26,251 bases of DNA from a virus. Both the position numbers and the translations under genes were made by a program. Location of the stretch: positions 1-26,251 of the IMG/VR virus record IMGVR_UViG_3300044802_000108; one strand, given 5' to 3'. Under the pieces are notes generated by a model. That model was not told the DNA's origin. It did no database searches and saw only the letters and a list, made by a program, of their open reading frames with translations. Each line of letters opens with the position of its first letter. Position 1 is the stretch's first letter. Shown here in pieces: positions 23,864-26,251 of this stretch.

Positions 23864-23915
23864 AACTACCTTGGAACCCCTTCCCGGGTCGCTGAGCGCA
23901 CGAAAGGTCTGGAGA

Positions 23916-24440
23916 ATGACCCCAAAGCCATCCAGCAATGGTTCGAGCCTCCCAAAGGCTCCTAATGAGAAGTCGAAGTTCATCGAGTTTATTGAACGGA
24001 GGCTAGCTTTACAGCCAAATTGCTCAGTTTTTGACCTGGATAACCCCTCTCATATCCAGACTTTACCTCCTCTAGCAGACCTCGGCGTCTGGCTAGATAA
24101 TTGGCACGCTTTAGTAGATCTTCTTGGCACCCATGAAGATGCCAAGGAAGGCATAGAGCAAGCCCGAGATATTCTGTTTCTGGCCAGTTGCCGGCTCGCT
24201 AATATGGTATTCAGCACCGACGCAACCAAGCCACCATTAGATCAGTTCGGTCCCCCAGGACGCGGACTCAAGTTGTTGTTTGAATCATCAACCTGTTATA
24301 CTCTTGTAGAACCAGTTGCTCTTTATAGAGGTCGTGTGGTATACTGGGGTAGTAATCCAGCTGTTCGCTGGACGGAACCGACATTCACGTGGGGTGGCGT
24401 TCGTATAGCCCGCGTGTCAGGTCTTGGGCATTTAAGTTAA
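23916..24440 (+). CDS. Hypothetical protein (174 aa)
   Basis: ATG 23916 has AAAGG (23903-23907) eight bases upstream; a TTG at 23871 is less likely. The N-terminal 20 residues are basic and polar, then a helical part (KFIEFIERRLALQ, GVWLDNWHALVDLLGTHEDAK) and a beta-rich end (TLVEPVALYRGRVVYWGS, TFTWGGVRIARV). No family recognised. It may be virion-related given its neighbours. Confidence 0.65.
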   Translation: MTPKPSSNGSSLPKAPNEKSKFIEFIERRLALQPNCSVFDLDNPSHIQTLPPLADLGVWLDNWHALVDLLGTHEDAKEGIEQARDILFLASCRLANMVFSTDATKPPLDQFGPPGRGLKLLFESSTCYTLVEPVALYRGRVVYWGSNPAVRWTEPTFTWGGVRIARVSGLGHLS

Positions 24441-24452
24441 GGAGGAAGTCAA

Positions 24453-24653
24453 ATGGTAGGAGCTCTATTAGTTGGATTCGTTGTCGGTTTAGCCGTTGGT
24501 GGATACTTCGGCTATCTTTATGGCAAGCAGGGTGTTGCTGCAGTTTTGACAGAACTGGTTGCTCTCGAGGACAAGGTCAAGGCAGATGCTGAAATTGCCA
24601 AGACTTGGGTTCTCGCTGAGATCGCAAAGATCAAGGCAAAGTATGGTCTATAA
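24453..24653 (+). CDS. Small membrane protein with glycine-zipper span (66 aa)
   Basis: A strong AAGGAGGAAG site (24440-24449) precedes the ATG. Residues 2-24 form a membrane span with glycines spaced like a glycine zipper (LLVGFVVGLAVGGYFGYLYG), followed by an amphipathic helix (about 29-64) rich in Glu, Lys and Ala. Such proteins self-associate in membranes. The layout could suit a holin-like or membrane-shaping protein, but no lysis genes are adjacent. The stop is directly followed by the structured RNA region. Confidence 0.75.
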   Translation: MVGALLVGFVVGLAVGGYFGYLYGKQGVAAVLTELVALEDKVKADAEIAKTWVLAEIAKIKAKYGL

Positions 24654-24657
24654 TCTC

Positions 24658-24984
24658 CCTTCCCGCGGTCTCTTTTGATGGCCGTTGAGGGAAGGAATCT
24701 CCCGTAAACTAGATGCGGGAAAAGAGGGCGAACCCAGCTTATAACTGACGGCCCTCCCAGAAATGAACGTGGCGGAAAAGACGACTCGACTATATAATAA
24801 CGCCAGCAAAGGCCCAAGGGGCGAATGTCTCTTGGTTGATTCAGGGCTGACGAAAAGGTTGGGGAAAGTAAACGCTTGGGGATAAAGCGGGCTTGCTCTA
24901 CGGCAAGTACTTAACGGAACCCATGGCCGTCGGTTAAGAAAAGGCCATTCCAGAGTGGAGACGGGAATCTCTGGCGTTCATTTC
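24658..24984 (+). ncRNA. Multibranched structured RNA with long-range and loop-loop helices
   Basis: No gene fits this stretch. GAAATGAACG (24760-24769) is fully complementary to CGTTCATTTC (24975-24984) and closes a domain whose first and last inner helices abut it: TGGCG/CGCCA (24770-24774 with 24801-24805) and CCAGAG/CTCTGG (24950-24955 with 24969-24974). Other stems are CCTTCCC/GGGAAGG (24658-24664 with 24689-24695), TCCCG/CGGGA (24700-24704 with 24716-24720), GAGGGC/GCCCTC (24724-24729 with 24751-24756), CGCTT/AAGCG (24873-24877 with 24885-24889), CTTGC/GCAAG (24892-24896 with 24903-24907) and ATGGCC/GGCCAT (24923-24928 with 24943-24948). Loop TAACTGAC (24742-24749) matches loop GTCGGTTA (24929-24936), a kissing contact crossing the closing helix. 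No known family recognised. Confidence 0.6.
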
Positions 24985-25001
24985 ACTTTCTTTGGATTCA
25001 T

Positions 25002-25613
25002 ATGAACAAAGACGAAAAGATAATCAAATCTGGGGAGCAGAAGTATGAGACTGATCTCCCTCCCCGTGATCCTGATACCGGATTGGTAGTTGATGCCGGC
25101 GTCTATGATGAGAAGCAGGAGAAGAAGCGCCGTATGCATGCTGAGGGTATGGCGCACTATGCAGAAGATGGAGTTCATTTCGATCCTGCCGGATTGTATC
25201 TCTGTGGTGGCAAGAAAGGTGACGGTATAGGCGGATGTAATCAATACAGACCTGGCTCTCATAAGTGCCTTTCTGTCGCCGGCAAGATTGATGGAGATTG
25301 TGGTAGCTGTGCATGGTGGGAGAAGTATATCGAACCGCCTGGACACTCGGACCTGGATCTAGGTCCTGAAAAGTTCCACAAGAGTGAAGCAAGCTACGGA
25401 GAGCGTGAGCCAGGCGGCACAGGCTGGAGCTGCTCCAATTGCGAGTATGGTTCTTTTGCTAAGCAGAAAGATTCTGAAGGACGATCGATATTCTGTGGTA
25501 TCTGGGGAGCGAGAGTATTGCCTCTTGCCTGTTGCGGCCGGAACCACCAGCTGGGCGACACGGTCTTCAAGGACAATCAGCCGCTCACGCAGATAGAGTT
25601 TTATACTACATAA
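25002..25613 (+). CDS. Cysteine-rich putative metal-binding protein (203 aa)
   Basis: Soluble protein with about a dozen cysteines in three clusters: LCGG and GGCNQY with HKCLS (about 68-90), GDCGSCAWWEKY (about 98-109), and GWSCSNCEYGS, FCGIWGARVLPLACCG (about 142-181). The CxxC pairs followed by spaced single cysteines recall iron-sulfur or zinc proteins, with some likeness to small HiPIP-type Cys patterns, but I cannot assign a family. The first 45 residues are charged and probably flexible. The start has only TGGA six bases upstream, so translation may depend on the structured RNA before it. Confidence 0.75.
   Translation: MNKDEKIIKSGEQKYETDLPPRDPDTGLVVDAGVYDEKQEKKRRMHAEGMAHYAEDGVHFDPAGLYLCGGKKGDGIGGCNQYRPGSHKCLSVAGKIDGDCGSCAWWEKYIEPPGHSDLDLGPEKFHKSEASYGEREPGGTGWSCSNCEYGSFAKQKDSEGRSIFCGIWGARVLPLACCGRNHQLGDTVFKDNQPLTQIEFYTT
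25602..25608 (+). promoter_or_regulatory. TATACTA box before the tRNA genes
   Basis: TATACTA at 25602-25608 shares seven bases with the repeated motif at 9667 and 22158 and lies 13 bases before the first tRNA. It is inside the last codons of the upstream gene and has no -35 box, so support is weak. Confidence 0.25.
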
Positions 25614-25621
25614 GTTTCTAT

Positions 25622-25710
25622 TGCGGGATGGACCAGTCAGGCCGACGTCGCCGGTCTCATAAACCGGAAGCGAAAGCGCATCGTGGGTTCGAATCCCACT
25701 CCCGCTACCA
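25622..25710 (+). tRNA. tRNA with CAT anticodon, initiator-like, with long variable arm
   Basis: Acceptor TGCGGGA (25622-25628) with TCCCGCT (25700-25706): six pairs and a T-T mismatch at 1:72, then A73 and an encoded CCA. D arm GAC/GTC (25631-25633 with 25647-25649), including an A11-T24 pair, and conserved GG at 25640-25641. Anticodon stem CCGGT/ACCGG with loop CTCATAA, anticodon CAT at 25658-25660. T arm GTGGG/CCCAC with loop TTCGAAT. The variable region is 15 nt (25668-25682) and folds as GCG/CGC around AAAG. The unpaired 1:72 and A11-T24 are initiator features, but initiator, elongator Met and Ile2 tRNAs normally have a short variable loop. Confidence 0.85.
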
Positions 25711-25869: not shown

Positions 25870-26251
25870 ATGATAATCGAACCCGGACAGTGCAATATAA
25901 AAGATTGGGTTGTAGAGTGCGGCATGTCAGGCCGTATGCAATCCTGTCTTTGCAGTGCATTCCGCGGGGCTGATTCAGATGATTCACCGGAAGTAAAACG
26001 GATCATACGTTGGATCCGCAGGCAGTGTATCAAGCTGAACAATCCTAAGTCTCACTTCATGAAGGACGTTGAGTTCGTAGATATCAAAGCCCTCATTGAA
26101 CAAGATGCCTGGCAATGGGATCGTTTGAAGGATCATTTCTACGATCACCTGAAACAAGCTCTCGAGGTTATTGCTTTCTACCATCCTGATGCATGGGTGG
26201 CGGCAAAGGCACTAAAGGCTTATCATGATATGCAGGAACATGAGAGCATGA
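25870..26251 (+). CDS. Hypothetical protein, cut by the window end
   Basis: ATG 25870 follows AAGAGAG (25859-25865) just after the second tRNA. The frame stays open for 127 codons to the last base, so the gene continues outside. The visible part has a Cys-rich start (QCNIKDWVVECGMSGRMQSCLCS) and then a helical, charged region rich in His and Trp (from FMKDVEFVDIKALIEQD to HDMQEHESM). No family recognised. Confidence 0.75.
   Translation, partial: MIIEPGQCNIKDWVVECGMSGRMQSCLCSAFRGADSDDSPEVKRIIRWIRRQCIKLNNPKSHFMKDVEFVDIKALIEQDAWQWDRLKDHFYDHLKQALEVIAFYHPDAWVAAKALKAYHDMQEHESM

Follow-up and report, generated by a model that had tools for sequence, protein, structure and literature searches.

A conserved structured RNA of about 330 nt beside tRNA genes in a phage lineage

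The window analysed here is the whole of the 26,251-base virus record IMGVR_UViG_3300044802_000108 (positions 1 to 26,251). Near its end, a 348-nt intergenic gap (24654-25001) between a 66-aa gene and a Cys-rich 203-aa ORF contains, on the plus strand, a conserved unit of 327 nt (24658-24984) with genes on both flanks (Table 1). The first hairpin of this unit, H1, begins 4 nt past the stop codon of the 66-aa gene, and the 203-aa ORF, which yielded no match in Pfam or PHROG and no counterpart among the 13 relatives searched, is followed by tRNA-Met(CAU) and tRNA-Val. The CAU-anticodon tRNA, 87-89 nt long in its three copies (25622-25710, L020:2569-2657 and L067:1945-2031), is an unusual type II-like tRNA conserved across these phages; the folds of its window and G005 copies show an added variable-region hairpin and an unpaired first base, with U1 facing U72, and its nearest matches among phages carry a tRNA-Ser annotation.

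Table 1. Features of the locus, in window coordinates (pairing strands separated by a slash).
Feature	Position	Strand	Description
66-aa gene	24453-24653		upstream of the RNA
48-nt stretch at 3' end of 66-aa gene	24595-24642	+	98% identical to relative; run of 16 identical codons
H1	24658-24695	+	7-bp outer stem, 3-nt bulge on 3' side, inner stem, tetraloop
H2	24701-24719	+	loop AACUAGA in window, ACCUUAAGA in relative
H3	24724-24756	+	stem shape conserved, loop not
P1 closing helix, 5' strand	24760-24769	+	identical in relative
Long arm	24772-24875	+	compensatory and G-U changes in three inner helices
Long arm, base	24772-24774/24873-24875	+	3 bp; no variation
Long arm, helix	24785-24791/24857-24863	+	7 bp
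Long arm, helix	24804-24807/24846-24849	+	
Long arm, tip P3b	24814-24822/24827-24835	+	9 bp
P4	24877-24880/24920-24923	+	U-A to C-G
P4/P5 region, internal loop	24877-24923	+	highly conserved, GAUAAAGCGG / ACUYAWCGGAA
P5	24891-24897/24902-24908	+	U-A to G-C
P6 hairpin	24924-24947	+	conserved 14-nt loop (L6) GUCGGUURAGAAAA; one compensatory change
P7 hairpin	24950-24974	+	invariant 13-nt loop (L7) UGGAGACGGGAAU; stacked on P1
P1 closing helix, 3' strand	24975-24984	+	10 bp, perfect, with 24760-24769
203-aa Cys-rich ORF	25002-25613	+	612 nt; separates RNA from tRNA-Met in window
tRNA-Met(CAU)	25622-25710	+	89 nt; tRNA-Val next in window

Relatives were reached through the primase-helicase, a search with which identified 13 loci at 64-100% identity in IMG/VR, including contigs of 110 kb (G005) and 215 kb (G006); IMG/VR searches with the 203-aa, 66-aa and sigma-like neighbour proteins returned no relatives. 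When the RNA was searched against the whole G005 and G006 records, each returned a single clear match (E about 1e-37), at 74% identity over window positions 24760-24993 and starting precisely where the closing helix does. This second version occupies the same gene position and shares 74% identity with the window version over the 225-nt core (24760-24984), and it was also found by DNA pattern in a 13.7-kb contig; only two distinct sequences were thus available, the window version and the one common to these three contigs. In all three, the end of the RNA is followed after 14 nt by an 89-nt tRNA-Met, which in G005 and G006 is the first of about 24 tRNAs and has no ORF between it and the RNA. The RNA had been predicted to lie next to phage tRNAs, and the tRNA-Met and tRNA-Val of the window and the array of the relatives agree with this. 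The 215-kb contig carries about 24 tRNA genes in 9 kb (L034:7028-15904) and further tRNA genes elsewhere. Phage tmRNA genes also lie near tRNA genes (L070:1138-1483 and L066:10049-10385), in the 215-kb relative and a more distant 44.6-kb relative, with the tags AEFEELPLAA and AESLALAA.

The more distant relative G013 (64% primase identity) has the same flanking gene order with no trace of the RNA. There, a gene resembling 23871-24437 by inspection precedes a 70-aa gene resembling the 66-aa gene. The place of the RNA is taken by a simple hairpin of terminator-like form that has a T run, and beyond it come a 138-aa ORF, tRNA-Met and a gene similar to the one at 25870. Retention of the gene order without the RNA indicates that the RNA is a self-contained module at a variable site. 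The coding content of the interval between the 66-aa gene and tRNA-Met likewise varies, with the 203-aa ORF in the window, nothing in G005 and G006, and the 138-aa ORF in G013 (L067:2030-2446), which has a signal-peptide-like start.

Comparison of the two versions supported a conserved fold of the core. RNAalifold on the two-core alignment gave -65.65 kcal/mol against -38.9 +/- 4.6 in column shuffles, which retain the conservation pattern (z -5.9, none of 500 shuffles as good), and z -4.3 on the opposite strand. All 46 consensus pairs are kept and nine of them, spread over six of the eight helices, are compensatory, a tally that, drawn from two distinct sequences, counts changes and does not amount to a phylogenetic test; when the 3' partners were displaced by 1 to 3 columns, at most one compensatory pair was left. 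Indels between the versions are not multiples of three, indicating that the region is not coding. The single-sequence fold energy of the window version is modest (z -1.9 for 348 nt, z -2.9 for 225 nt). The originally predicted compact multibranched RNA closed by a 10-bp helix is therefore supported, since the whole RNA is conserved and its pairs are kept. The closing helix itself, P1, is present and perfect in the window and kept in the relative, but both versions are identical over it and it shows no covariation; Watson-Crick helices of at least 10 bp spanning more than 100 nt arose in 22 of 1000 dinucleotide shuffles of the 348-nt intergenic region. Covariation, proposed earlier as a check on the long-range helices, came instead from the other helices.

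The first and last stems of the multiloop had both been predicted to stack directly on the closing helix. This holds for the last stem, P7, in which four of the six pairs (24950-24955/24969-24974) are changed on both sides. The proposed first stem (24770-24774/24801-24805) was rejected in favour of the long arm, which is energetically preferred in both versions. Its advantage is 11 kcal/mol in the relative but about 2 kcal/mol or less in the window, where the free minimum, a fold without P7, P4 and the long arm, lies about 5 kcal/mol below both.

Upstream of the core, independent folds of the two versions produced three hairpins of the same architecture, H1-H3, whose stem letters are largely different. 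H1, with a UGA bulge in the window and CGA in the relative, shows 4 compensatory changes in 13 pairs and z -3.9 when folded alone. Over H1, H2, H3 and the tip helix of the long arm, none of the 33 pairs is broken and 11 are compensatory, although this pairing was fitted by hand to two distinct sequences only and leans towards structure by construction. The H2 loops have differing self-complementary cores, CUAG in the window and CUUAAG in the relative, and these palindromes hint that H2 could allow homodimer kissing; self-complementarity of the loop pair would arise by chance in about 1.4% of cases (0.228 x 0.061), and several loops were inspected. Switches of a self-complementary core have been reported for the symmetric kissing loops of OLE and GOLLD (PMC12286853), and the CUAG/CUUAAG switch is of the same kind, a lead from two sequences.

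The original prediction also included a kissing contact across the closing helix, between the loops of hairpins 24724-24756 and 24923-24948. Both hairpins were found, and the proposed match (24742-24749 with 24929-24936) is present and in fact extends to 12 nt, 24742-24753 with 24925-24936, with one G-U. However, a 12-bp match with G-U allowed occurred in 96 of 500 dinucleotide shuffles of the 348-nt intergenic region, making such complementarity alone uninformative, and in the relative the best contiguous Watson-Crick match between the upstream region and L6 is 4 nt. The H3-L6 kissing loop was consequently rejected as a conserved feature, and in the window it is probably a chance match. Because the kissing contact was rejected while L6 (one position differs between versions) and L7 are nearly invariant, these loops probably serve something else. 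Contacts are possible at two complementarities, both of them invariant: CCGUC/GACGG, which would join L6 to L7, and UGGCGG/CCGUCG, which would join 24770-24775 to L6.

Searches beyond this lineage gave no further homologues at the sensitivity used. Rfam hits in the window at the gathering threshold were confined to its two tRNAs, and permissive filters over 4227 families (E up to 5 for the window, up to 10 for the relative) returned no credible match, the few hits being unrelated and far under gathering scores, in keeping with the earlier impression that the RNA is not recognisable as GOLLD and may be new. A 25-nt blastn match in phages falls in apparent coding sequence and was judged to be chance; a phage search with the relative's stretch returned the tRNA part only, among the matches listed, and plasmid records gave no match. 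DNA patterns recovered only the same lineage and two apparently coding matches in viral contigs, and in 84,980 species genomes two matches, neither extending past the motif. A covariance model run on 25 virus records found the known copies only.

Conservation is also unusually high towards the 3' end of the 66-aa gene. Codon identity at conserved residues is 0.81 in this gene, whereas in twelve others it spans 0.33-0.63 (0.33-0.54 once a single gene is set aside), and silent-site conservation at 24595-24642 so far above that of other genes suggests an overlapping nucleic-acid signal. This stretch is possibly a promoter, an RNA 5' end or a processing site, perhaps the start of the RNA gene; no promoter or terminator near the RNA scored above chance.

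The region 24658-24984 is almost certainly a real conserved structured RNA. An element acting at the DNA level, such as a recombination site or the terminal inverted repeats of a small mobile element, with the RNA fold incidental, would fit the identical 10-bp arms and the absence of the module at the same position in one relative, yet it is the least credible explanation given the compensatory changes within internal helices, the stronger structure signal on one strand, the hairpin architecture conserved outside the arms, and the lack of extra copies in the window or in the G006 stretches compared. Nearly as improbable is that the Rfam models missed a divergent representative of a known ribozyme or RNA class (group I intron, RNase P RNA, phi29-type packaging RNA, GOLLD or ROOL): the large phage, the tRNA context, the closed ends and the several conserved loops would suit it, but no credible match to the 4227 families was obtained with either version even under permissive filters, and RNase P-like motifs were not evident by eye. 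No gene is interrupted, as the 66-aa gene on one side is complete and, in the relatives, the tRNA on the other side is intact; together with the missing model matches, this argues against an intron or known ribozyme. Our preferred reading (probability about 0.6) is a lineage-specific, stably folded noncoding RNA of ~330 nt that acts in trans and lies at the head of the tRNA array.

Two cis-acting roles compete with a trans-acting RNA. A 3' untranslated structure stabilising the mRNA of the 66-aa gene or controlling its translation is unlikely; H1 lies only 4 nt past the stop codon, the final codons are unusually conserved at the DNA level and no promoter is evident between gene and RNA, but the homologous gene in G013 carries a plain terminator-like hairpin instead, and for stabilisation a simple hairpin would do. 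Somewhat less doubtful is a leader of the tRNA operon, of riboswitch, attenuator or processing type, controlling or maturing the tRNA transcript. Just 14 nt separate the RNA from the tRNA-Met that follows it at the head of the array in the relatives, and the conserved internal loops could form a ligand pocket; on the other hand, no Rfam riboswitch matched, no terminator-like switch was found on the plus strand near the RNA in the window, and there the 612-nt ORF intervenes before tRNA-Met while the RNA is still retained. This difference in the downstream neighbour, 203-aa ORF or tRNA-Met, speaks against an RNA that regulates a single gene in cis. We regard action in trans, as a free noncoding RNA, as fairly probable. 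Such an RNA would be made from the plus strand within or just ahead of the tRNA transcript and, in the relatives, maturation of tRNA-Met by RNase P 14 nt downstream would free its 3' end. The released RNA may then act in trans via L6, L7 and the P4/P5 internal loop, the large conserved loops being probable docking sites where a protein, another RNA or a further copy of the molecule could bind. More tentatively, it might be a new class of RNA that self-assembles through the H2 and L6/L7 loops or docks on tRNA or the translation machinery, serving the phage tRNAs as a compact, independently arisen counterpart of GOLLD and ROOL.

Several known RNAs invite comparison. The phi29 pRNA is likewise a phage RNA with paired ends, and the candidate L6/L7 pairing, invariant here, adds to the likeness; however, pRNA belongs to small protein-primed phages, whereas this phage encodes a primase-helicase and a RecA-like protein and its RNA has no Rfam match to pRNA. 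HDV-like theta ribozymes, too, are RNA elements of phages that have been reported in association with tRNA genes (PMC10879173). They are short double-pseudoknot RNAs, in contrast to the multibranched 225-330 nt found here, for which Rfam again gave no match. Neither bacterial RNase P RNA nor the group I intron core was matched in Rfam, and a by-eye comparison recognised no RNase P core motifs or P4 pseudoknot. At the RNA region, neither ARAGORN nor Rfam matched a tmRNA with a tag ORF, and the relatives carry a separate tmRNA. GOLLD is a structured noncoding RNA found in phages and prophages, where it often neighbours tRNA islands; its members are often longer than 800 nt, and one studied example lies downstream of a Met-tRNA (PMC12286853). 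The present RNA shares the phage setting near tRNA genes but lies upstream of tRNA-Met, does not match the GOLLD covariance model of Rfam and, as a unit of 327 nt, falls short of a length above 800 nt with a conserved 3' domain. ROOL, a phage and prophage RNA with kissing loops and an obscure function, is also often found near tRNA islands (PMC12286853), a setting that this RNA shares; its architecture differs and the ROOL model does not match it. Assembly into oligomeric RNA nanocages is a further trait of both GOLLD and ROOL. With both models unmatched and GOLLD much longer, the RNA belongs to neither, and we class it as a new RNA family within the broad group of structured phage RNAs beside tRNA genes. 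Phages repeatedly carry elaborate RNAs with an obscure job beside their tRNA genes, and a third example, much shorter and unrelated, would suggest a general association of such RNAs with tRNA genes. Being small and tractable, it would also help in asking what these RNAs do for phage tRNAs, and the length of its 225-nt core permits both direct probing and determination of its structure.
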